DNA of 44,662 nucleotides, taken from positions 1 to 44,662 of the forward strand of contig CATMQD010000004.1 of the NCBI GenBank assembly GCA_950073045.1. The letters run 5' to 3'. Under the pieces are notes generated by a model. The model made no database searches, was not told the origin of the DNA, and saw only the letters and a list, made by a program, of their open reading frames with translations. This document shows positions 1,073 to 15,384 of this stretch, piece after piece (the stretch's first letter is position 1; every line of letters begins with the position of its first letter). The DNA comes from an uncultured Flavobacteriales bacterium. Its GTDB lineage: Bacteria; Bacteroidota; Bacteroidia; Flavobacteriales; Schleiferiaceae. A program made the position numbers and the translations under genes.

Positions 1073-2101
1073 ATGGGCAGAAGCATCATTTATGGCGTGT
1101 TAAATTGGGGATTAGGCCATGCTACTCGCAGTAGTCTAATCATTCGAGCCCTTGAAAAAGAGGGCTTTGAGCCAATAATCGCCTCCGATGGTGCAGCAGG
1201 GGAATGGCTACAACAAGAGTTTCCACATCTCGCCTACCGTTCATTAAGACCTTATGGGATTCATTATTCGCGGTATAGTTGGCAATGGCCGTCCTTATTA
1301 ATGCAACTACCCAAAGTGGCAATGGCTGCATCAGCCGAAAGGCAATTACTTAAAATTTGGGTGGAGGAATTAAAACCCGTGGGTATTATCTCGGATAATC
1401 GATTAGGCTTTAGTCATCCTTATATTCCATCTGTTTATTTAAGTCATCAATTACAACCTCGTGCCGGGTTTTTTAGTCCCATCGCCGCCAGGCTACATGA
1501 ATATTACCATAGTAAGTTTCAAGAAATCTGGGTGCCGGATGAGGCTGAGCTAAACTTGAGTGGTAAACTTAGTGAGGGCGAGGGGTCGAGAAGGATTGGT
1601 CTTTTATCTGCCTTAGAGCGAGAAACTGCTAAGAGCGAAGGAATTCTAATTATTCTTAGTGGTCCCGAGCCGCAACGCAGTCTACTTGAGAATAAAATTT
1701 TGGATCAGGCAGACGACCTTCCTGCTAATAGCATTTTGATTAGAGGTACTAATAATGCCATGGAACGACCTATTCATACCAATTTGAAAGTTTTTAACCG
1801 ATTAGGGAGCCGTGAAATTTCGAAATTATTAGCCAAGGCAGAATTGGTTATAAGTCGCAGTGGTTATAGCTCGATAATGGATTATTTCTATTTAGGTAAG
1901 AAAGCCGTTTTAATTCCTACTCCCGGTCAGAGTGAGCAAAATTATTTAGCAAGAAGACTTGGCGATAGTCCTCACTTTTTAATGGTAAAACAGAGGAAGC
2001 TAAATTTAAAAGCGATTGTAGAAAGGGCCAATACTTTGGAAGCACCGGAACCTCACGATAGTAAATTGCCCAAAGACTTGTTTAGCCTTTTTTCAAAGTA
2101 A
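1073..2101 (+). CDS. Glycosyltransferase family protein (GT28/MurG-like fold)
   Basis: N-terminal YGVLNWGLGHATRSSLIIRALEKEG and C-terminal AELVISRSGYSSIMDYFYLGKKAVLIPTPGQSEQNYLARRL are typical of this family. Confidence 0.82.
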   Translation: MGRSIIYGVLNWGLGHATRSSLIIRALEKEGFEPIIASDGAAGEWLQQEFPHLAYRSLRPYGIHYSRYSWQWPSLLMQLPKVAMAASAERQLLKIWVEELKPVGIISDNRLGFSHPYIPSVYLSHQLQPRAGFFSPIAARLHEYYHSKFQEIWVPDEAELNLSGKLSEGEGSRRIGLLSALERETAKSEGILIILSGPEPQRSLLENKILDQADDLPANSILIRGTNNAMERPIHTNLKVFNRLGSREISKLLAKAELVISRSGYSSIMDYFYLGKKAVLIPTPGQSEQNYLARRLGDSPHFLMVKQRKLNLKAIVERANTLEAPEPHDSKLPKDLFSLFSK

Positions 2102-3128
2102 ACGAGAAGGTAGAGCCTTTGCTTTCGCTACTGCGTAAATTGATGGTTTGCTTGTGGGCCTCAATGATGTGCTTTACAATGGAAAGTCCTAAACCTGTAC
2201 CGCCAGCATCACGAGAACGGCTTTTATCTACACGATAGAAACGTTCAAAAACCCGGGGCACATCTTCGGGAGGAATGCCAATTCCATCGTCGTTTACCTC
2301 GGTAAGGATGTGTTTGTCCATATCGAAGAAACGCACTTCAATATGGCCATCTTTATTACCATATTTTACCGCATTACCTATCAGGTTAATCAGAACTTGT
2401 TCAATCTTAGAACGATCTGCTCTTACTTGAATAGGGCGATCGTGGTCGCGCTTGGTTTTAAAGCTAATGTTCTTTTTCCGAGCACGATCCTCTAAAAGTT
2501 CAAATACTCCATCCACTAGGTCGGCTAAATCAAAAGTTTCATAATTAATATGTACCCGATCCGATTCCAAAGCGGAAATAACTTCAAGGTCCTCGATAAT
2601 ATTAATCATCCTATCTACTGATTTATTAGCTCGCTTTAAATAGCGCCTATTAATTTCTTGATCGTCGATAGCTCCATCCAATAGAGTAAGTAGGTAACCC
2701 TGAATATTAAAAATGGGGGTCTTGAGTTCATGGGAAATATTACCAATAAACTCTCTGCGGAAGTTTTCACGCTCGCGCAGTTCTGCAATTTCATTTCGAT
2801 TCTGTGTGGCCCACTCGGATACTTCGCGTGTTACCTGATCTAAATCGGCAGAACGGGCTAATTCATCTTCCTCAAACTCCGAAGCAATTTTTAGCTCATG
2901 GATATTTTTATAGATGATTTTAACCTTACTGTAAATGAACTGCTCTACCCCAAAGCGAATTAAAAAAAAGGCCAAAACGAAAATAAGGCCACCTATTAAA
3001 AAGGGAAGGTAAACCGGCACACTAGGAACAACGAAAATTGCTTTAAAAAGCGACATGGCCCCAGTGGAGATGCCTCCAAGGACCAATGCAATTGCAAATG
3101 CTAATATGCCGGGTTTATCGAATCGCAA
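2082..3128 (-). CDS. PhoR-like sensor histidine kinase
   Basis: Two N-terminal TM segments, H-box FIGNISHELKTPIFNIQGYLLTLLDGA, N box INLIGNAVKYG, G boxes DDGIGIPPEDVPRVFERFYRVDKSRSRDAGGTGLGLSIVKHIIEAH. Confidence 0.93.
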   Translation of the reverse strand: MRFDKPGILAFAIALVLGGISTGAMSLFKAIFVVPSVPVYLPFLIGGLIFVLAFFLIRFGVEQFIYSKVKIIYKNIHELKIASEFEEDELARSADLDQVTREVSEWATQNRNEIAELRERENFRREFIGNISHELKTPIFNIQGYLLTLLDGAIDDQEINRRYLKRANKSVDRMINIIEDLEVISALESDRVHINYETFDLADLVDGVFELLEDRARKKNISFKTKRDHDRPIQVRADRSKIEQVLINLIGNAVKYGNKDGHIEVRFFDMDKHILTEVNDDGIGIPPEDVPRVFERFYRVDKSRSRDAGGTGLGLSIVKHIIEAHKQTINLRSSESKGSTFSFTLKKG

Positions 3129-3812
3129 TTAGGCTTCGAATTTATAACCAACGCCCTTCACGGTTTTAATTGACTTATCGCCAATCTTCTCACGCAGTTT
3201 TCGGATGTGTACGTCGATGGTTCGTCCACCAACCACTACTTCATTACCCCAAATTTTATCTAAAATCTCATCGCGATGGAATACTTTCCCTGGTCGAGAA
3301 ATTAGAAGGCTTAATAATTCAAATTCTTTTCGAGGAAGATTAAGCTTATCGCCATTTAGGCTTACTTGGTACTTATCTAAATCAATGCTAAGATTGCCGA
3401 ATTTTTGCACATTCTCGCTTTGAACGGATTGCCCATAACGACGGAGCAATGCTTTAATACGGCTAATTAATACCTTAGGCTTAATTGGCTTAGTGATATA
3501 GTCGTCGGCACCAGCATCGAAACCTGCCACTTGAGAGTAATCTTCCCCACGCGCAGTAAGGAATGCTATCAGCGTGCCTTCTAAACCTGCGGTCTTGCGA
3601 ATTTGATCACAAGTTTCGATGCCATCCATGCCGGGCATCATTACATCCAATAGTATAAGGTGAGGCTGTTCTTTCTTCGCTAGTTTTAGTCCGGTTTCCC
3701 CGTCATTAGCGGTTAGAACTTTAAACTCCTCCTTTTTAAGGTTATAACTTACAAACTCCAGAATATCGGGTTCGTCGTCAACAAGTAGAATGGTATAATC
3801 GCTGTTATTCAT
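3129..3812 (-). CDS. PhoB/OmpR-family response regulator
   Basis: Receiver domain (LLVDDEPDILEFV, LLDVMMPGMDGIE, DDYITKPIKPKVLISRIKALLRR) plus winged-helix DNA-binding domain (GRTIDVHIRKLREKIGDKSIKTVKGVGYKF). Confidence 0.95.
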   Translation of the reverse strand: MNNSDYTILLVDDEPDILEFVSYNLKKEEFKVLTANDGETGLKLAKKEQPHLILLDVMMPGMDGIETCDQIRKTAGLEGTLIAFLTARGEDYSQVAGFDAGADDYITKPIKPKVLISRIKALLRRYGQSVQSENVQKFGNLSIDLDKYQVSLNGDKLNLPRKEFELLSLLISRPGKVFHRDEILDKIWGNEVVVGGRTIDVHIRKLREKIGDKSIKTVKGVGYKFEA

Positions 3813-3994: not shown

Positions 3995-4023
3995 CTTAAA
4001 GCTCGCTTAACCTCAGCTTAACA
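3995..4023 (+). promoter_or_regulatory. Candidate PhoB/PhoP-type box: three direct repeats at 11-bp period
   Basis: CTTAAAG (3995), CTTAACC (4006), CTTAACA (4017): TTAA cores at 3996, 4007 and 4018, upstream of the lipoprotein ATG near 4069. Confidence 0.55.
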
Positions 4024-4068: not shown

Positions 4069-5304
4069 ATGAAAAAATTTAAGTTTTTTGCAATGACTGC
4101 TTTCGCAGCATTCGCGATGACCTCTTGTGAGGACGATGAGCCTGCTACTACTACCGTTGATAATGGTGTTGACGTAGTTGCTGTTTCTGGAACTATCAAT
4201 AGCGACGTTACCTGGTCCAAAGATAATATCTACCGTCTAGATGGTCGTGTTTTAGTTGCTGGTGGTGCTACCTTAACTATCGATCCAGGTACTATCATTA
4301 AAGCTGCTCCAGGTTCAGGTGCTTTTGCTTCTGCCTTAGTAGTTACTCGTGATGGAATGATCAACGCTCAAGGTACTGCTGCTGAGCCTATCATTTTCAC
4401 TACAATTGCTGATGATATTAAGCCAGGACAAATCGCTTCTCCAAACATGGACCCAACTAACAACGGTCTTTGGGGTGGTGTTATCATCTTAGGTGAAGCC
4501 CAAATTTCTGCTTCTAATGATGATGGTGATCAGTTAGCCGAATTACAGGTAGAAGGTATTCCTACTTCAGTAGACGCTCGTTACGGTGGTAACAACGATG
4601 CTGATAACAGTGGTGTATTCTCTTACGTATCTATCCGTCACGGTGGTGCTAACATCGGTGATGGTAACGAAATCAACGGTCTTACTATGGGCGGTGTTGG
4701 TACTGGTACTAAAATCGATCACATCGAAATCGTTGCTAACCAAGACGACGGTGTTGAGTGGTTCGGTGGTTCTGTAAACACTTCTAACATGTTAGTTTGG
4801 AACTGTGGTGATGATGGTTTAGATACTGACCAAGATTGGATCGGTACTTGCGAAGACTTCATCGTTGTTGCTCCTGACGGATCAGCTTTCGAATTAGACG
4901 GTCCAGAAGGTAACTTAAACCGCGGAACTCACCAATTTAACAATGGTACTGTATACGCTGGTTCTAGCATTGCTTCTTTAATCGACTGGGACGGTGGTAC
5001 TAACGCTGGTGTAAACAACGTGTTCTTCTTTGGTTTAGATTCTGACTACGGTTACATCGCTGAAGATCCTGCTAACGACGTTGACGAATTCAAACCTTTC
5101 GCTTCTTTCGGTGGCGACGGAACTGGTAACACTGCTAACCTTCGTGTTAAATTAAACGGCCAAACTCTTGCTGACTTATTCGAGACTGGTTCTACCATTC
5201 CTTCTGCAGTAAGTGAGTCTACTTCTAATGACTTCGGTCACACTGGAAACTACTCTTGGACTTGGGCTTCTGTGTCTGGTTCTTTAGGTTCTATCGGACT
5301 TTAA
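4069..5304 (+). CDS. Surface lipoprotein with beta-helix-like repeats
   Basis: MKKFKFFAMTAFAAFAMTSCEDDEP is a lipoprotein signal; body DGRVLVAGGATLTIDPGTIIKAAPGS...GTAAEPIIFTT...LWGGVIILGEA...FSYVSIRHGG looks like a right-handed beta-helix. Strong codon bias. Confidence 0.8.
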   Translation: MKKFKFFAMTAFAAFAMTSCEDDEPATTTVDNGVDVVAVSGTINSDVTWSKDNIYRLDGRVLVAGGATLTIDPGTIIKAAPGSGAFASALVVTRDGMINAQGTAAEPIIFTTIADDIKPGQIASPNMDPTNNGLWGGVIILGEAQISASNDDGDQLAELQVEGIPTSVDARYGGNNDADNSGVFSYVSIRHGGANIGDGNEINGLTMGGVGTGTKIDHIEIVANQDDGVEWFGGSVNTSNMLVWNCGDDGLDTDQDWIGTCEDFIVVAPDGSAFELDGPEGNLNRGTHQFNNGTVYAGSSIASLIDWDGGTNAGVNNVFFFGLDSDYGYIAEDPANDVDEFKPFASFGGDGTGNTANLRVKLNGQTLADLFETGSTIPSAVSESTSNDFGHTGNYSWTWASVSGSLGSIGL

Positions 5305-5393: not shown

Positions 5394-8315
5394 ATGAAGC
5401 TTACAATTAAATCAGCCTTAACGCTCTTGTTATTTGCTTTACCTACGCTAATGCTTGCCCAAAAAGGTACCATTCGCGGACAGGTTATAGACGGAGAAAA
5501 TGGCGAACCTCTATTTGCGGGTAATGCCGTAATTAAAGGAACCCAAATAGGTACTACTACCGATTTTGATGGTTTTTACGAGTTAATGGCTGAGCCAGGT
5601 ACCTACCAGTTGGAGATTAGTTTTATCGGAATGTCTAGTCTTATCATTTCTGATGTGGTAGTTAAGGCCGGTGAAGTTACCGTTGTAGATCCTGTAACCT
5701 TACAACCTGCGAGTAGTGAACTAGCGGAAGTAGTAGTAACTACCGAGGCAGTTCGAAATTCGGAAGCTGCAATTGTAACCGTTAAAAGAAAATCTACCAA
5801 TCTTATCGATGGGGTTTCTGCAGCGAAGCTTCGAAAAACTGGTGATAGCGATGCCGGTGATGCTGCCAAAAGGGTTACCGGTGTATCCGTAGAAGGAGGA
5901 AAATACGTTTACGTTCGTGGTTTAGGTGATCGTTACACTAAAACCATGTTAAACGGAGTGGATATCCCTGGCTTGGACCCGGACAAAAACAGTATTCAGA
6001 TTGATATCTTCCCAACTAACTTGATTTCAAATCTTACTGTTCTTAAAAGTGGTTTAGCTGAATTACCGGCCGACTTTACCGGAGGGGTTGTGAATATTGA
6101 AACTCAAGAATTCCCAACCGACAAAATTTTTGACATTTCTGTAGGAGTAAGCTACAATCCACAAATGCACTTCAATTCGGATTATATCAATTACGAAGGT
6201 GGTGCTACCGACTTCTTAGGTTTTGATGATGGTACCCGCTCAATTCCAAATCCGAATGGATTAGGTGATCGCCCTTTCTTTGCTCCTGATGCTGATGTAG
6301 AGAGCTTTAACCAATCATTTAACCGTACCCTTGGGGCCGAGAGCCAAACAAGTATCGCCGACTACAGCTTTGGTGTATCTTACGGAAACCAAATTTCTTT
6401 AGAGTCTGGAAATAAATTCGGTTACATCGCTAGCCTTACTTACGATAACTCTCGCCTTTATTACGACAATATGGAATTTGGCGAATTTCAGCGTTCAATT
6501 CCATCTGATGAAACGGAACTTTTAGCGGCTACAACCCAAAGCGGAAAAGTAGCCGAGCAAAATGTTTTACTAGGCGGATTGGTTGGTTTATCCTACAAAA
6601 CCTTAAAGTCTAAGTATAAATTAACCATGATGCATTTGCAGAATGGTTCTTCTCGTTCAGCACAATTATCTCTACGCTCATACGAGGATATCCCAGGTAT
6701 TTCGGATTACGTTGCTTTCTCTCATAACTTGGAGTACAACCAACGTGGCTTGAGCAATGTGCTAATTGCTGGGGAACACTATATAGATGGTGGTGATTGG
6801 GAAATTAATTGGAAAGTTTCTCCAACTCTTTCTTCTCTTTCTGACCCTGACATTCGTAAAACAGCTTTCTCTATCAGTCAAGGCGATTCTGCTTTTGATC
6901 CAGGTGAAGGTGGTTTACCAAGTCGTTTATGGCGTTCTTTAAGTGAGATTAACAATGTGGCGAAAGTAGATGTGATCCGTAAACATGAATTGTTTAATGA
7001 CGATGCCAAATTGAAATTCGGTATTAGCCATACTTACAAATACCGTGATTACTCTATTTTCCAGTATAACTTGAACGAGTTGACTTCACAGAATGCACCT
7101 CAAATTCAATTGAATGGTGATCCTAATGCGGTATTAACAGACGCGAACTTATATTCCTATAACTCTACTGCTGACGATTATATTGGTTTTTGGTATAACC
7201 CTACTTTAGAGCCAGGATTCGCTAATCCTAATGAGTACCAGTCGAATATTAACAACTTCGGTTTTTATGTAGGTGAGGAATTTAAGGCTACTGAACAACT
7301 AAAGGCAGTTGTAGGACTTAGAGCGGAGCTCTTCCAGCAACGTCACACTGGTCGTGACCAGGATGGTGCGAACCCAAATAGCACTGCAGGTAATGTATTG
7401 GATAATGAAATGGTTTTAGATGCCTTAGATTTATTCCCATCTGCCAATTTGATTTTTGCAGTAAACGAGAACGTTAATATTCGTGCATCTTATTTCCGCT
7501 CTATAGCTCGTCCTAGTTTTAAAGAACTTTCTTTCGCTCAAATTCTAGACCCAGTTTCGAACCGTACTTTTAACGGTGGCTTATTTGTTTATGATGGCGA
7601 TTGGGATGGTAACTTAACTTCTACTCGTATCAATAACTTCGACTTACGTTGGGAGTACTTTATGGAGGGAGCCGATATTGTTTCGGTAAGTGCCTTCTTT
7701 AAAAGTTTCGATGCACCAATTGAATTAGTACGTATCCCAACTTCTCAAACTTTACGTGATATTCAACCACGTAACGTAGGTCAAGCAACCTTAATTGGTG
7801 GTGAGTTTGAATTCCGTAAAAACTTGAAATTCATCAATGAGAACTGGAACAAGATTGCCTTCTCTGGTAACCTTACTTATACCTACTCTCAAGTGGAAAT
7901 GGCCCCAGTTGAATTTAATGCTCGTAAAAACTTCGAGAAGGATGGCGAAACTGTAGAAAGCACTCGTCAAATGGCTGGCCAAGCTCCATACATTGTAAAT
8001 GCTGGTTTTAGCTACGATGATATTGAGAAAGGTCGCAGTGCTGGTTTATTCTATAATGTTAAAGGTCGTACCCTAACTATTGTAGGTAGTGGTTTGGCAC
8101 CAGATATTTACTCGGAGCCCTTCCATAGCTTGAACTTTACTTTCAATCAAACTTTTGGCAAGGATAAAAAATCAGCCATCAATATCAAGGTTTCCAATAT
8201 CCTTAATGATGTGCGTGAGGAACTTTATCAAGCTTATGAAGCTCAAGAGCAAGCCTTTTTACGCTACAGTCCTGGAACTGCAGTTTCTATCGGATATACC
8301 TATAGCTTTTATTAA
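5394..8315 (+). CDS. TonB-dependent receptor with N-terminal carboxypeptidase-regulatory-like domain
   Basis: Signal peptide; GTIRGQVIDGENGEPLFAGNAVIKGTQIGTTTDFDGFYEL (CarboxypepD_reg-like), plug region KRVTGVSVEGGKYVYVRGLGDRYTKTMLNGVDIPG, long beta-barrel ending GTAVSIGYTYSFY. Confidence 0.95.
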   Translation: MKLTIKSALTLLLFALPTLMLAQKGTIRGQVIDGENGEPLFAGNAVIKGTQIGTTTDFDGFYELMAEPGTYQLEISFIGMSSLIISDVVVKAGEVTVVDPVTLQPASSELAEVVVTTEAVRNSEAAIVTVKRKSTNLIDGVSAAKLRKTGDSDAGDAAKRVTGVSVEGGKYVYVRGLGDRYTKTMLNGVDIPGLDPDKNSIQIDIFPTNLISNLTVLKSGLAELPADFTGGVVNIETQEFPTDKIFDISVGVSYNPQMHFNSDYINYEGGATDFLGFDDGTRSIPNPNGLGDRPFFAPDADVESFNQSFNRTLGAESQTSIADYSFGVSYGNQISLESGNKFGYIASLTYDNSRLYYDNMEFGEFQRSIPSDETELLAATTQSGKVAEQNVLLGGLVGLSYKTLKSKYKLTMMHLQNGSSRSAQLSLRSYEDIPGISDYVAFSHNLEYNQRGLSNVLIAGEHYIDGGDWEINWKVSPTLSSLSDPDIRKTAFSISQGDSAFDPGEGGLPSRLWRSLSEINNVAKVDVIRKHELFNDDAKLKFGISHTYKYRDYSIFQYNLNELTSQNAPQIQLNGDPNAVLTDANLYSYNSTADDYIGFWYNPTLEPGFANPNEYQSNINNFGFYVGEEFKATEQLKAVVGLRAELFQQRHTGRDQDGANPNSTAGNVLDNEMVLDALDLFPSANLIFAVNENVNIRASYFRSIARPSFKELSFAQILDPVSNRTFNGGLFVYDGDWDGNLTSTRINNFDLRWEYFMEGADIVSVSAFFKSFDAPIELVRIPTSQTLRDIQPRNVGQATLIGGEFEFRKNLKFINENWNKIAFSGNLTYTYSQVEMAPVEFNARKNFEKDGETVESTRQMAGQAPYIVNAGFSYDDIEKGRSAGLFYNVKGRTLTIVGSGLAPDIYSEPFHSLNFTFNQTFGKDKKSAINIKVSNILNDVREELYQAYEAQEQAFLRYSPGTAVSIGYTYSFY

Positions 8316-8412: not shown

Positions 8413-11400
8413 ATGAAGAGAAAACTTACAAATCTATTTGCAACTTTGGGAGCCCTAGTCATTGGCTTTCAGGGCTTCGCGAAAACCTCAGGTGAACTTG
8501 GTGGGATGGCCAGTTCTTCGGTATCGGTGCCTGCCTATACCGTATCGCAAATCAATAGCTTAGATGCCAATTTCTCCGCAGATTCGGCGGGTGTAGTTTG
8601 CTCGATCGATGGTGTGGTTTATACCGATGACTTCGATGGAAATAACGGTTACAGTTTCTACATGTATGACAATACCGGTGGTATTAACGTATTCTCTTTT
8701 AACGATGAGCCTGGTGGGTACCAAGCCATGCGCGGAGATTCTATCCGTGTATTCGGAAGCATCGCCATGTATAATGGTTTGTTAGAAATCGATGTAGATT
8801 CTATCCACAGTCTTGCCACTGGAATTAGCTTAGCTTCTCCAATGGTAGTTTCTGATTTAGATGAGAGCACCGAAAGTGAGTTTATTCAACTAAACGGATT
8901 TACCTTAGTTACTCCTTCTCAATGGCCATCAGCCGGAAGTAGTGCTAATGTGGATATTACCAATGGTGTGGATACCCTTACCATGCGTATTGACAGCGAT
9001 ACCGACATCGACGGAAGTCCTGCCCCAATGGGAAGCTTTAACGTAGTTGGTGCTGGTGCTCAATTTGATAGCTCTTCTCCTTATGATGAAGGTTATCAGG
9101 TTTTCCCACGTGACTTGCAGGATATTACAATGAATCCCGTTTCAATTAACGGCGTTCCATTGTACACTGTATCACAAATCAACAGCTTAGATGCTAACTT
9201 CAGTGCCGACTCTAGTGGAGTTAACTGTGCCCTTAATGGTGTAGTTTACACCGATGACTTCGATGGAAATAACGGTTACAGTTTCTACATGTACGACAAT
9301 ACCGGTGGTATTAATGTATTCGCCTTTAGCGATGAGCCTGGCGGTTACCAAGCGATGCGTGGTGATTCTATTCGCGTATTTGGTGACATCACCATGTATA
9401 ATGGTTTATTAGAAATTGCAGTAGACTCTATTCATACCCTTTCTACTGGTGTGAGCTTAGTTTCTCCAATGGTAGTTTCTAATTTAGATGAAAGCACCGA
9501 AAGCGAGTTTATCCGTTTAAATGGATTTACCTTAGTTACTCCTTCTCAGTGGCCTTCAGCCGGAAGTAGTGCTAATGTGGATATCACCAATGGAGTGGAT
9601 ACTTTAACTATGCGTATCGATAGCGATACCGACATCGACGGTACTATGGCTCCAACTGGTGCATTTGATGTAATTGGCGCGGGTGCTCAGTTTGATAGCT
9701 CTTCTCCTTATGATGAAGGTTACCAAATTTTCCCACGCGATAGCATGGATATTATTCCAGCTGCAATGGCAAATCCTTGTTCTGCTCCATTCTTCTCAGA
9801 GTATATCGAAGGATCTGGCGTAAATAAAGGTTTTGAAATTTATAACCCTACCGCCGGCGTTTTAGATCTTGGTCCTTATAAAGTGATTACTAGCTTTAAT
9901 GGTGGCCCATCTTCCACAAGCTTAAACCTTACTGGTACTATTCCTTCTGGAGGTACTTATACTGTTGTTAATTCAGGTGCCGACCCTACTATGTTAGCTG
10001 TAGCTGATATCACCGTAGGTGGCGGTGTAGTTAACTTTAATGGTGATGATGCTATTATGTTGGTAGATACCGTAATGGGAGACACCATCGATATCATCGG
10101 TGTAGTAGGTGTTGATCCAGGTTCAAGCTGGACAGTAGGTACCGGAAGCACTGCCAACCATACCTTAGTACGTATGGCCAGCGTGAGCAGCGGTCAAACT
10201 GATTGGACTATTGGTGCTACTGAGTGGACTGTAAACTCTAGTAATACTTTCAGCTTCTTTGGTGCTCACACTAGCAACTGTGTGAATACTACTCCAGCTA
10301 CCCCAACCATCGAGTTCCGTATGGCTACTTACTCTGCCTCAGAAGGTGCAGGTAACGGTGCAATTACTTTGGATATTAATCCTACCAGCACTACTAACGA
10401 TACCGTATTCTTATCCTTTACTCCTGGTCCTGGCTTAACTGTAGCTGACGGTACAATTACTCCTGCTTTCGATCCTACAACTGGATTATTAAGCTTGCCA
10501 ATTCCAGCAGGTTCTGATTCTATCAATTTGCTTACCACCATTACTGATGATGCTTTAGTGGAAGGCTTAGAGTACGGTGATTTAGATATTCTTTCTACTA
10601 GCGCTGGATTAACAGTTGGAACTATTAACTCCGCTCGTTTCGAGATTATCGATAATGACATTCCTACCTATACTATCGGTCAGGTAAAAGGTGTTGATGC
10701 CGACTTTATTCCAGATTCATTAGGTGTAGAGTGTCGTTTAATTGGTACTGTATTTACCGATGATTTTGATGGTAATAATGGTTACAGTTTCTACATGTAC
10801 GATCAAACTGGTGCAATCAATGTATTCAACTTTGTTGATGAGCCAGGTGGATACCAAGTACAGCGAGGTGACTCTATCCGTGCCATCGGAACAATTGAAT
10901 TCTACAATGGTCTTATCGAGATTCAAGTAGATTCTATCGCTCTTATTCAGAGTGGGGTTGCCCTTCGTCAACCAACTCAGGTTTACGACCTAGATGAAAG
11001 TACCGAAAGTGATTACATCCGTTTAAATGGATACTATTTAGTAGATCCTTCTACTTGGCCAATCTTTGCTGGTAGCAGTGTAAACATGGATATCACCAAT
11101 GGTCAGGATACTTTAGTAATGCGTATCGACAGCGATACCGATATTGATGGAACTCCTGCTCCAACTGGTTACTTTGATGTAATTGGTGCTGGTGGTCAGT
11201 TCGATGGTTCTGCTCCACATGATGAAGGTTACCAAATTTTCCCTCGTGATACATTTGATATCATCCCGGTTACTTTACCAGAACTATACATTAGCGAAGT
11301 AATGCCAAGCAGTGATCTTTCTGCACCAGTTGATGGTGATTGGTTTGAAGTACGTAATGCTGGTGCTAACCCAGTAAACTTAGACGGATTTAGCTGGGAC

Positions 11401-12045
11401 GATAGTAGCCGCGATCCAGGAACTCACACTGTAAATACTGGTGTAATGATTCCTGCTGGTGGAACTGCTTTATTCGTAGAAGTTGATGATGCTGATGTTA
11501 CTGCTTGGGAAACCGAATGGAAACAAAACGGTCAAGGCTTAATTATTCTAAATGAGGACAGCGAGTTTAACGGTTTCTCTGGTTTAAGCTCTGGTGGTGA
11601 TGAAGTGAACCTTTACGATGCTGAAGGTCGTTTAATTTCTGCTGCTCTTTATACTGGGGCCGATGTAAACGGAGGATTCACTATTGAGTTTGATATGGAT
11701 GGTAATGTATTAGGTAGCGCTGTAGATGGTGTGAATGGAGCATACACTTCCCTTAACGGTGATGTTGGTAGCCCTGGAGATCAATCAGCGGTAAGCTTAG
11801 ACGAAATCTTAGAAGCTAATTTAACTCTATATCCAAATCCAAGTAATGGTGTGTTTACCATTGAGAGTGCTTCAACTCAAGAGAAGAGCATTCAAATTAT
11901 GGATCTTAATGGAGCTATGATTTACAATGAACTAAGCACTGCTAAATCACTTAAAGTAGATCTTTCTAACTTCGCGGCCGGAATTTACTTGGTAAAAGTG
12001 AAGAGCGGAAACGAAGAAGTGATTCGTAAAATGGTGTTGCGTTAA
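8413..12045 (+). CDS. T9SS-secreted multidomain protein: OB-fold-like repeats x3, lamin-tail-like x2, Calx-beta-like, type A sorting domain
   Basis: Repeats beginning Y(T)(V/I)(S/G)Q(I/V) at 8536, 9163 and 10669; lamin-tail-like APFFSEYIEGSGVNKGFEIYNPTAG...VVNFNGDDAIMLVD...GVDPGSSW; second one ELYISEVMPSS...WFEVRNAG; Calx-beta-like EGAGNGAITLDI...; C-term LYPNPSNGVFTIES...GIYLVKVKSGNEEVIRKMVLR. Confidence 0.88.
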   Translation: MKRKLTNLFATLGALVIGFQGFAKTSGELGGMASSSVSVPAYTVSQINSLDANFSADSAGVVCSIDGVVYTDDFDGNNGYSFYMYDNTGGINVFSFNDEPGGYQAMRGDSIRVFGSIAMYNGLLEIDVDSIHSLATGISLASPMVVSDLDESTESEFIQLNGFTLVTPSQWPSAGSSANVDITNGVDTLTMRIDSDTDIDGSPAPMGSFNVVGAGAQFDSSSPYDEGYQVFPRDLQDITMNPVSINGVPLYTVSQINSLDANFSADSSGVNCALNGVVYTDDFDGNNGYSFYMYDNTGGINVFAFSDEPGGYQAMRGDSIRVFGDITMYNGLLEIAVDSIHTLSTGVSLVSPMVVSNLDESTESEFIRLNGFTLVTPSQWPSAGSSANVDITNGVDTLTMRIDSDTDIDGTMAPTGAFDVIGAGAQFDSSSPYDEGYQIFPRDSMDIIPAAMANPCSAPFFSEYIEGSGVNKGFEIYNPTAGVLDLGPYKVITSFNGGPSSTSLNLTGTIPSGGTYTVVNSGADPTMLAVADITVGGGVVNFNGDDAIMLVDTVMGDTIDIIGVVGVDPGSSWTVGTGSTANHTLVRMASVSSGQTDWTIGATEWTVNSSNTFSFFGAHTSNCVNTTPATPTIEFRMATYSASEGAGNGAITLDINPTSTTNDTVFLSFTPGPGLTVADGTITPAFDPTTGLLSLPIPAGSDSINLLTTITDDALVEGLEYGDLDILSTSAGLTVGTINSARFEIIDNDIPTYTIGQVKGVDADFIPDSLGVECRLIGTVFTDDFDGNNGYSFYMYDQTGAINVFNFVDEPGGYQVQRGDSIRAIGTIEFYNGLIEIQVDSIALIQSGVALRQPTQVYDLDESTESDYIRLNGYYLVDPSTWPIFAGSSVNMDITNGQDTLVMRIDSDTDIDGTPAPTGYFDVIGAGGQFDGSAPHDEGYQIFPRDTFDIIPVTLPELYISEVMPSSDLSAPVDGDWFEVRNAGANPVNLDGFSWDDSSRDPGTHTVNTGVMIPAGGTALFVEVDDADVTAWETEWKQNGQGLIILNEDSEFNGFSGLSSGGDEVNLYDAEGRLISAALYTGADVNGGFTIEFDMDGNVLGSAVDGVNGAYTSLNGDVGSPGDQSAVSLDEILEANLTLYPNPSNGVFTIESASTQEKSIQIMDLNGAMIYNELSTAKSLKVDLSNFAAGIYLVKVKSGNEEVIRKMVLR
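8536..9129 (+). repeat. OB-fold-like domain repeat, copy 1
   Basis: YTVSQINSLDANFSADSAGVVCSIDGVVYTDDFDGNNGYSFYMYDNTGGINVF...EGYQVFPRDLQDI. Confidence 0.9.
9163..9756 (+). repeat. OB-fold-like domain repeat, copy 2 (627-nt offset from copy 1)
   Basis: YTVSQINSLDANFSADSSGVNCALNGVVYTDDFDGNNGYSFYMYDNTGGINVF...; 44-nt exact match 8623-8666 = 9250-9293. Confidence 0.9.
10669..11268 (+). repeat. OB-fold-like domain repeat, copy 3 (more diverged)
   Basis: YTIGQVKGVDADFIPDSLGVECRLIGTVFTDDFDGNNGYSFYMYDQTGAINVF...EGYQIFPRDTFDIIP. Confidence 0.88.
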
Positions 12046-12112: not shown

Positions 12113-13828
12113 TTGGCAGATTTACTCTTTAATATTCTTTCCTTAATTGGTGCTTTAGGCCTTTTCATCTTTGGGATGAAGGTAATGAGCGAGGCGATTC
12201 AGAAATTCGCTGGAGCCCGTTTACGTCGGACCCTTAGGGCAATGACGGCCAAAAAAGGAAGGGGTATTTTATATGGACTAGGTGTTACTAGTCTGTTGCA
12301 GTCATCATCGGCTACCACGGTAATGATTGTGAGTTTTGTAAATGCTGGTTTAATTACGGTTGAACACTCGGTAGGCTTAATAATGGGCGCCAATATTGGT
12401 ACCACAATTACCGCCTGGCTAGTTTCCATTTTAGGGATGGGTAAACTTTCAATTGCTCATTTATCCTTGCCTTTATTAGCTTTCGGCTTTCCAATGCTCT
12501 TTTTGGGAAAAGAAAAGCTTCGCAATTATGGGGAGGCTATTTTCGGCTTTGCCATCTTATTTATCGGACTAAGCTTTATGCGGGAGTCCATGCCTGCCTG
12601 GCAGGAAAACACTTTCTTATTACAGTTTTTACAGGAATTCGAATTCCAACAAGGGAATTGGGCGCAAAACTTAGGAGTAGGTTTTCTATTCGTGGCCTTT
12701 GGTATTGCTGCCACTTTCCTTTTACAATCTTCCAGTGCTGCAATGGCACTAACCTTAGTTTTTACGGCTAATGGCCTGATATCTTTCCCGCTCGCTGCAG
12801 CGATCATTTTAGGAGAAAATATAGGTACCACTTTTACAGCCAATATCGCGGCCTTGGTGGCTAATATACACGCTCGCAGAGCGGCCTTCACCCATTTGTT
12901 ATTTAATGTATTTGGCGTGCTTTGGGCGCTCTTACTATTAGGTCCATTTTTAAATCTAGTAGCCTATTTAAGCGATTTGTTCTTTGGTTCTAATCCAATG
13001 GCGGATGCTGCCGTAATTCCATTGTCTCTAAGCTTATTTCACTCTCTCTTCAATATTATCAATGTCTTGATTTTCTATAACCTCACGAGACAGTTAGTGA
13101 AATTGGCGGTTTATATTATGCCCTCCAGGAGTAATGAAGATGAGTTGTTTAGCTTGGGATATATCGGAAATAGCTTACTCGCTACCCCTGAGTTATCATT
13201 AATCGAAGCCCGAAAGGAATTAGTGAAGTTTGGCGACCTAATACGGAAGGCCTACAAGTATATTCCTTTGCTCATAACCGAGATGGAGGAGAAGAAGCTC
13301 GAGAGCTATGTGCAAAAGCTTCAGAAGTATGAAGATATTTCTGATCGCATGGAAATGGAGATTTCTGCCTACCTCAGTAAAATTAGTCAGGCCGATTTAA
13401 GTTCCGAAGGTTCTAGTAGGGTGCGTAGCATGTTGCATATCGCAAATTACTTAGAGCGCATTGGCGATATCTACTTGGAGGTAAGTCGGAACCTTACCAA
13501 TCGCAAGCAGCAGAAGGCTTATTTCACGCCCGAAATGCGCAAGCAAGTGATGCAATTATCCGAGCTAGTTTCGCGCAGTTTGGATATCATGGTAAAGAAT
13601 ATTGAAGCAGATGCCGAAAGCTCGCAATTGGAGGACGCTAAGAAGATTGAGCGGGATGTTGATCAATTATTCCGTCGTTTGAAAAGCGATTATATCGATA
13701 AAGTAGAGAAAGGTAAATTCCGTATTCAAAGCGGGATGTACTATTCTGATTTACTTGCAGAAATGGAACGAATTGCCGACCACGCTTCTAGCGTAAGCAA
13801 AGCAGTGGAGCAATTGGATAAAAATTAA
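12113..13828 (+). CDS. Na/Pi cotransporter family protein with C-terminal PhoU-like domain
   Basis: LIGALGLFIFGMKVMSEAIQKFAG, LLQSSSATTVMIVSFVNAGLI, MGANIGTTITAW, LLQSSSAAMALTLVFTANG, GENIGTTFTANIAA; C-terminal helical PhoU-like region. Apparent TTG start. Confidence 0.94.
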   Translation: MADLLFNILSLIGALGLFIFGMKVMSEAIQKFAGARLRRTLRAMTAKKGRGILYGLGVTSLLQSSSATTVMIVSFVNAGLITVEHSVGLIMGANIGTTITAWLVSILGMGKLSIAHLSLPLLAFGFPMLFLGKEKLRNYGEAIFGFAILFIGLSFMRESMPAWQENTFLLQFLQEFEFQQGNWAQNLGVGFLFVAFGIAATFLLQSSSAAMALTLVFTANGLISFPLAAAIILGENIGTTFTANIAALVANIHARRAAFTHLLFNVFGVLWALLLLGPFLNLVAYLSDLFFGSNPMADAAVIPLSLSLFHSLFNIINVLIFYNLTRQLVKLAVYIMPSRSNEDELFSLGYIGNSLLATPELSLIEARKELVKFGDLIRKAYKYIPLLITEMEEKKLESYVQKLQKYEDISDRMEMEISAYLSKISQADLSSEGSSRVRSMLHIANYLERIGDIYLEVSRNLTNRKQQKAYFTPEMRKQVMQLSELVSRSLDIMVKNIEADAESSQLEDAKKIERDVDQLFRRLKSDYIDKVEKGKFRIQSGMYYSDLLAEMERIADHASSVSKAVEQLDKN

Positions 13829-14364: not shown

Positions 14365-15384
14365 ATGTTTACAAACGTACAAGCCGCGGAAAATAGTTCC
14401 GCATACCGGCACATAAAAGAAACGCTCCTCGAAGGTAAGAAGTTGGAATGGGATGAACTAGCCCTAAGCCTATTTGAACTTCAATATGATCTTAATTCGG
14501 TTTACCGGGATTGGTGTAATCATCTCGGCAAGAGCCCTAAAGTGGTGAAAAGCCTGGCAGAGATACCATTTTTGCCCATCGATTTTTTCAAGCAGGAGAA
14601 GCTTTCTATAATTAAAGAAGCGCCCCCAACTTATTTTAAAAGCTCGGGGACTGGAGGTTATGGACAAAGCCGACATGCAGCCTATGACCTCGATTTTTAC
14701 GATCGGATGTGCGTGCAAAGTTTTGAAGCTTTTTATGGTCCATTAGAAGACTGGTGCATCTTGGCTTTATTACCCGCTTATTTAGAGCGAGAGGGGTCTT
14801 CCTTAGTGCGAATGGCGCAGCATTTCATAAACGTATCATCCGATTCCGACAGTGGTTTTTTCTTGAATGATCTTCAAGGGCTAAGTGAAATCCTTCAGCG
14901 TAAGCAAGAAACGGGAAAACCCACTTTGCTTTTAGGCGTAAGCTTCGCCTTATGGGATTTAGCGGAGCAATTCCCGATGGATTTATCAGGTATCACCATT
15001 ATGGAAACCGGCGGAATGAAAGGTCGTAGAAAAGAGTTAATTCGGGCCGATTTACATGCGATTTTCCAAAATGCCTTTCAGGCGAAAGCCATACACTCCG
15101 AATATGGAATGACCGAATTATTTTCCCAGGCCTACAGTCAAGGTGCTGGTCGATTTACACCAGCAGCGAGCATGAAAGTTTTTTGCCGCGAAATGGAAGA
15201 CCCTTTTAGCAGAGCCGCCTTTGGTAAAACTGGAGGCCTAAATATTATCGACCTTACCAATATTGATTCCTGTGCATTTATTGAAACACAGGATTTGGCT
15301 AGGGTTTATGAAGATGGTAGCTTCGAAGTATTGGGTCGTTTTGATCGCTCCGAAGTGCGCGGTTGTAACCTGATGATTGGCTAA
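14365..15384 (+). CDS. LuxE/PaaK-like acyl-protein synthetase or acyltransferase
   Basis: IPFLPIDFFKQEKLSI, TYFKSSGTGGYGQSRH, ETGGMKGRRKELIRADLH, HSEYGMTELFSQAYS. Confidence 0.8.
   Translation: MFTNVQAAENSSAYRHIKETLLEGKKLEWDELALSLFELQYDLNSVYRDWCNHLGKSPKVVKSLAEIPFLPIDFFKQEKLSIIKEAPPTYFKSSGTGGYGQSRHAAYDLDFYDRMCVQSFEAFYGPLEDWCILALLPAYLEREGSSLVRMAQHFINVSSDSDSGFFLNDLQGLSEILQRKQETGKPTLLLGVSFALWDLAEQFPMDLSGITIMETGGMKGRRKELIRADLHAIFQNAFQAKAIHSEYGMTELFSQAYSQGAGRFTPAASMKVFCREMEDPFSRAAFGKTGGLNIIDLTNIDSCAFIETQDLARVYEDGSFEVLGRFDRSEVRGCNLMIG

Follow-up and report, generated by a model that had tools for sequence, protein, structure and literature searches.

Several bacterial systems link extracellular DNA, phosphate limitation and outer-membrane import. 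It has been shown that Xds, a nuclease built of a lamin-tail domain (LTD), an OB domain and an endonuclease/exonuclease/phosphatase (EEP) domain, is induced by PhoB and serves the use of extracellular DNA (PMC6746945), and that both Xds and ExeM require their OB domain, the LTD being dispensable for activity (PMC6746945, PMC6085458). The PhoBR cluster PUSIV of Flavobacterium johnsoniae (Fjoh_0543-0549) contains the TonB-dependent transporter (TBDT) Fjoh_0545 and the lipoprotein FII, Fjoh_0546, for which the fold-change column for inorganic phosphate (Pi) depletion gives 8.02 and 9.91, respectively; FII has been modelled on a polygalacturonase fold and plant glycan ligands have been suggested (PMC8115612). 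In Riemerella anatipestifer, the DUF5689 protein RA0C_RS04920 and the CarboxypepD_reg outer-membrane protein RA0C_RS04915 are essential for natural transformation, and roles as DNA receptor and channel have been proposed for this pair (PMC8459023). Here we describe a 1210-aa protein encoded on contig CATMQD010000004.1 of an uncultured Flavobacteriales bacterium (GCA_950073045.1), of which the whole 44,662-nucleotide stretch analysed is termed the window; its locus joins three subjects that we found discussed only apart, namely Pho-response LTD/OB nucleases, the phoBR-TBDT cluster of PUSIV and the pilus-free DNA uptake of Riemerella.

The reading that we favour, to which we give an even chance, is that the protein is a non-catalytic phosphorus-scavenging receptor, exported by the type IX secretion system (T9SS) and controlled by PhoB, which would capture nucleic acid or another phosphodiester polymer for nucleases acting in trans and for the neighbouring TBDT. 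The protein is probably anchored at the cell surface and, at roughly even odds, nucleic acid is its most likely ligand, while a non-catalytic protein of a Pho locus that is paired with a TBDT is a well supported description. Lamin-tail/OB nucleases, the PUSIV core and the Riemerella pair were already known; the new element is the phosphate context of the receptor family, which provides a concrete gene for asking whether bacteria of this kind obtain phosphorus from nucleic acid taken up through TonB-dependent receptors.

A non-catalytic protein of OB folds and lamin tails

The open reading frame (ORF) begins with ATG, and the encoded protein has a signal peptide at its N-terminus, as read from the sequence, and is closed by a T9SS C-terminal sorting domain (CTD), as expected of a putative T9SS type A cargo. 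Pfam recognised two LTDs (E 1e-23), three DUF5689 repeats (E 3.2e-19) and one Por_Secre_tail domain, with matches to the OB-fold family PF01336 inside the DUF5689 repeats (E 2.6e-12). Family-specific profiles resolved these into the order OBOB-OBOB-LTDa-Calx-OBOB-LTDb-CTD, with domain starts at residues 54, 263, 455, 643, 765, 957 and 1137, and the domains occupy the whole chain, without a gap that could house an EEP domain. In DNA the three repeats share 67-86% identity, so the array was duplicated recently or homogenised.

A sequence-only reading of this stretch had described a T9SS-anchored scaffold or binder with an ExeM/NucH-like lamin tail, OB-like repeats and no EEP motifs. Much of this was borne out. 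The NCBIfam ExeM model NF033680 matches the LTD at residues 450-633 (E 4.8e-18, 65 bits where the whole-protein cut-off is 1300), the quoted motifs lie where they had been placed, and the EEP part of that model matched nothing in the protein; likewise, neither EEP (PF03372/PF19580) nor any other catalytic family was found in the 1210 aa by Pfam at E<=1, and no hidden catalytic domain emerged. Where a single lamin-tail module had been described there are two LTDs, accompanied by a Calx-beta-like domain.

With regard to the repeats, an AlphaFold2 (AF2) model of residues 641-1135, computed with 30 relatives in the alignment, reached a mean pLDDT of 87.8 and shows two five-strand barrels. The top Foldseek match against the PDB was the p204 HINab-dsDNA complex, which has tandem OB folds (E 2e-7); as the TM across the entire multi-domain model is only about 0.2, this match supports the fold type only. 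Further matches included an archaeal RPA OB domain (28% identity, TM 0.72 by target length) and the single-stranded-DNA complexes of RADX, LEF-3 and CST (E<0.001). Tandem OB folds, as in nucleic-acid-binding OB proteins, were found by both AF2 and Foldseek, and the assignment of the repeats to this fold, which the sequence-only reading had proposed from likeness, holds in the models. Known lamin tails were matched at TM 0.64-0.67, and the Calx-like domain matched Calx CBD1. The model of OB2-LTD1 (residues 242-640) was low (pLDDT 45.9 with 7 sequences) and unusable, so that LTD 1 rests on profiles only.

A family scan of 34 proteins, comprising the window protein and 33 homologues with domains listed at E<=0.01, revealed a CTD in 34/34, an LTD in 32/34, DUF5689 in 30/34 and PF01336 in 24/34, and none of the 34 had a listed EEP, endonuclease I or phospholipase D (PLD) domain. 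A C-terminal core OBOB-LTDb-CTD is common to most members and the N-terminal array is shuffled; Pfam named Calx-beta in 2 homologues. Some members carry CBM48/AMPK1_CBM or cupredoxin domains, the plastocyanin/azurin-type copper-binding domain being present in 12/34. These results also bear on the view that the protein is a nuclease whose EEP domain was lost in this strain, that is, a decayed ExeM, or one with a hidden catalytic domain. The resemblance of LTD 1 to the ExeM lamin tail would favour such an origin; however, the frame is intact in four genomes of the same genus at 73-76% identity over nearly full length, and because none of the 34 members scanned has a nuclease domain, this is not a broken nuclease. 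The candidate was rejected on the family scan and domain coverage, and we consider it extremely unlikely; judged by its members' sequences, this is an established non-catalytic family.

It might also be argued that the protein is an adhesin or biofilm protein by which phosphate-starved cells hold on to matrix or extracellular DNA, and that it takes no part in import. As is typical of adhesins, the repeats form a modular array that recombines and varies in length, and the protein has a T9SS anchor; homologues reach 3500 aa. On the other hand, the receptor gene has a fixed place beside a TBDT gene through much of the family and DUF5689/LTD proteins adjoin three other TBDT clades, and we regard this explanation as improbable.

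A phosphate locus built on a PUSIV-like core

The genes phoR and phoB lie on the minus strand and, divergently from them, a lipoprotein gene is followed by the TBDT, the 1210-aa protein and a Na/Pi symporter with a PhoU domain (Table 1). This PhoBR/TonB/Na-Pi setting, which gives the likely role, was missed by the sequence-only reading, whose non-enzymatic T9SS scaffold otherwise stands. The arrangement of phoR-phoB adjoining a TBDT and an FII-type lipoprotein gene is that of PUSIV, to which the core found here would correspond, a match made by gene description; the name FII is likewise given only by comparison with PMC8115612. For the lipoprotein gene, the start was taken at 4069 (the ORF caller gave 4024), and a profile of FII found no match among PDB sequences.

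Table 1. Coordinates of the features discussed; positions are those of the window unless a locus is named.
Feature	Position	Strand	Basis
PhoR-like sensor histidine kinase	2082..3128	-	HisKA + HATPase_c; best NCBIfam matches PnpS/PhoR
PhoB-like response regulator	3129..3812	-	NCBIfam PhoB TIGR02154 E 5.1e-65, Bacteroidetes PhoB E 6.8e-64, both below equivalog cut-offs
PhoB-box-like 11-bp-period repeat CTTAAA-N5-CTTAAC-N5-CTTAAC, upstream of lipoprotein gene	3995..4022	+	genome motif search; relatives
Outer-membrane lipoprotein, FII type, signal MKKFKFFAMTAFAAFAMTSC	4069..5304	+	alignment; homologues beside TBDT, mostly with phoB, across order
TonB-dependent receptor, CarbopepD_reg_2 + Plug + barrel, PhoBR-linked clade	5394..8315	+	Pfam; PHO-type clade SH-aLRT 100
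T9SS surface protein, OBOB-OBOB-LTD-Calx-OBOB-LTD-CTD, no catalytic domain	8413..12045	+	Pfam, family profiles, AF2/Foldseek
DUF5689 repeat 1 (tandem OB fold)	8542..9126	+	PF18942 30.1 bits
DUF5689 repeat 2 (tandem OB fold)	9166..9753	+	PF18942 28.5 bits; 32.8 with in-frame neighbours
Lamin-tail domain 1, ExeM/NucH-like	9775..10302	+	LTD 9787-10104, 38.6 bits; NF033680 E 4.8e-18
Calx-beta-like Ca-binding-type domain	10339..10653	+	Foldseek to Calx CBD1, TM 0.73 by target length
DUF5689 repeat 3 (tandem OB fold)	10672..11262	+	PF18942 28.8 bits; AF2/Foldseek
Lamin-tail domain 2	11281..11646	+	LTD 53.9 bits; Foldseek to lamin B1/A tails
T9SS type A C-terminal sorting domain	11827..12036	+	Por_Secre_tail E 5.9e-18, residues 1139-1208
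Na/Pi symporter with C-terminal PhoU domain	12113..13828	+	Na_Pi_cotrans E 1e-58, PhoU E 5.1e-14
108-117 aa CTD stubs	L209:10564-10896, L216:10429-10752, L217:10777-11112, L218:12462-12812		

Upstream of the lipoprotein gene stand three CTTAAC-like half-sites that recur every 11 bp, as they do in PhoB boxes such as the Pho boxes of E. coli. CTTAAC-N5-CTTAAC has a single exact copy in the 3.47-Mb genome. Of 27 relatives tested, 8, among them the Flavobacteriaceae genome L216, have the repeat exactly, with spacers that differ; several others have it at one or two mismatches and some lack it; half-sites kept while spacers vary constitute a phylogenetic footprint. From this box we infer that PhoB may control FII, TBDT and receptor together. 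With one mismatch allowed, the count across the genome is that of background (26, the reversed control giving 31), so that no regulon can be listed and validation of the motif on other Pho genes was not obtained. PstS was ruled out as an independent test of the box, given that no PstS-type binding protein (PF12849) was matched in eight genomes, seven of the genus (G000-G006) and G015, single-contig ones included; in these genomes the Na/Pi symporter may therefore be the main phosphate importer.

The order phoR-phoB/FII/TBDT/receptor is kept throughout the genus and shared by many genera of the family, and L077 and L215 show it in a second family (f14) of the Flavobacteriales; the Na/Pi gene usually follows, and the arrangement is incomplete in places owing to contig ends or a missing symporter. 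The FII-TBDT core itself extends across the Flavobacteriales, with FII homologues in 25/25 genomes tested by profile search and a TBDT adjoining the FII gene in 14/14 neighbourhoods read, 9 of which also have phoB and phoR alongside. The TBDTs of those neighbourhoods form, with that of the window, one PHO clade (SH-aLRT 100). Two further observations concern the surroundings of such loci: a LuxE-like acyl-protein synthetase gene (window 14365-15384, plus strand) is retained downstream in several families of the order, and four Flavobacteriaceae phoBR loci encode, at or near the receptor position, proteins of 108-117 aa that consist almost wholly of a signal peptide and a T9SS CTD.

Ligand and importer

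For this system as a whole we infer expression, surface location, ligand binding and transport. Phosphate starvation would lead PhoB to switch on lipoprotein FII, TBDT and receptor; an extended phosphodiester polymer, for which extracellular DNA or RNA is the likeliest candidate, would be captured by the tandem OB folds, while the LTD and Calx-like domains would provide spacing or Ca-dependent stabilisation; nucleases or phosphatases secreted on their own would hydrolyse the polymer in trans, fragments would cross via the neighbouring TBDT, and freed phosphate would enter through the Na/Pi symporter. The sequence-only reading had proposed looking for a separate secreted nuclease elsewhere in the genome, and such nucleases are present: the genome encodes an Endonuclease I with a CTD (C46), a second Endonuclease I that is incomplete at a contig end (C314), a secreted-type EEP protein (C36) and a PF19580 EEP protein (C73). 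A more specific form of this proposal, which we put forward as a tentative possibility, is TonB-dependent import of nucleic acid for phosphorus nutrition, in which a PhoB-controlled receptor of the competence-receptor domain family passes DNA or oligonucleotides on to a TBDT dedicated to this task. If true, the consumption of DNA and its uptake for transformation would, in this phylum, rely on a common receptor module joined to different importers.

Several observations weigh against a role in nucleic-acid capture. OB folds elsewhere also bind sugars and proteins; the protein is highly acidic, with an isoelectric point of about 4 and a net charge of -126; the Flavobacteriaceae and Weeksellaceae loci read have the FII-TBDT core without the OB/LTD receptor, so that the core TBDT may have another substrate; and in the tree the competence TBDTs form their own clade (SH-aLRT 100), outside which the window TBDT falls. 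Acidity was dropped as a test of DNA binding, being non-discriminating because competence DUF5689 proteins are likewise acidic. The same PhoB-controlled receptor might serve another organic-phosphorus polymer, such as a phosphorylated glycan, a teichoic acid-like polymer, polyphosphate or phytate-metal particles, with no role for nucleic acid. The wide occurrence of the core without the receptor, the polygalacturonase-fold model of FII with its suggested plant glycan ligands (PMC8115612), the CBM48/AMPK1_CBM or cupredoxin domains of some homologues, and a strong acidity that, together with Ca-type modules, fits Ca-bridged polymers all favour this view; on the other hand, DUF5689 and LTD are found repeatedly alongside nucleases and competence genes, and the OB folds have their best structural matches among nucleic-acid binders, and we consider it rather unlikely.

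The links to competence deserve separate attention. A DUF5689 protein is encoded directly after a TBDT here, as in the Riemerella pair. At the R. anatipestifer locus L220, comEC (PF03772), an EEP gene (PF19580), a TBDT and a DUF5689 gene lie together, and among 68 named loci a TBDT-sized gene stands directly upstream in 63 and an EEP-motif gene next in 58, as judged by length and motif only. The EEP gene of L220 (4724-5914, minus strand) bears a signal peptide and is divergent beside the competence TBDT-DUF5689 pair, likewise in most of L219-L298, and is a candidate for the dsDNA-to-ssDNA nuclease invoked by PMC8459023. It could be proposed that the 1210-aa protein is the natural-transformation DNA receptor of its lineage, with the Pho locus as control point: no other DUF5689 modules were found in its genome, and DUF5689 with a TBDT is the Riemerella competence pair. 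However, the TBDT clade differs, a T9SS CTD takes the place of the lipobox and the proposal presupposes that the lineage is transformable, which makes this explanation very unlikely. Orthology of the window TBDT to the competence TBDT was rejected by tree and profile search, and since the two are not orthologous the importer's substrate cannot be transferred by homology.

DUF5689/LTD proteins adjoin at least four TBDT clades (PHO, competence, split and a PorV-like group), and some competence-type proteins fuse DUF5689 with an LTD (L145). Three other genomes (L156, L157, L158) have in a row an LTD-only T9SS protein, a TBDT and an OB- or DUF5689-PLDc_2 T9SS protein, which by its domain content is a split version with a nuclease or phospholipase-type domain. 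In L065, L072 and L073, a TBDT, a PorV-like protein and a lipoprotein precede an OB/LTD homologue outside a Pho locus.

Comparison with known systems

The proposed receptor shares lamin-tail and OB modules with ExeM, NucH and Xds; unlike these nucleases, it is without EEP, its OB modules are multiplied and mixed with Calx, and it has a T9SS anchor and a place beside a TBDT. Both modules of the ExeM/NucH order, in which an N-terminal LTD is followed by OB, are present here in the order OBOB-OBOB-LTD-Calx-OBOB-LTD. The Riemerella pair, like that of the window, sets a DUF5689 protein of cell-surface type beside a CarboxypepD_reg outer-membrane receptor; there, the DUF5689 protein is a short lipoprotein that has a single DUF5689 and ends in a DUF5017-like part, paired with a TBDT of a distinct clade near comEC, whereas the window has a 1210-aa T9SS protein in a Pho locus. 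PUSIV resembles this locus in combining phoBR with a TBDT and an FII-type lipoprotein, both strongly induced by Pi depletion in PUSIV. The two differ in what comes after the TBDT, which is followed here by an OB/LTD receptor and a Na/Pi-PhoU symporter, whereas the genes listed for PUSIV include no DUF5689/LTD receptor.

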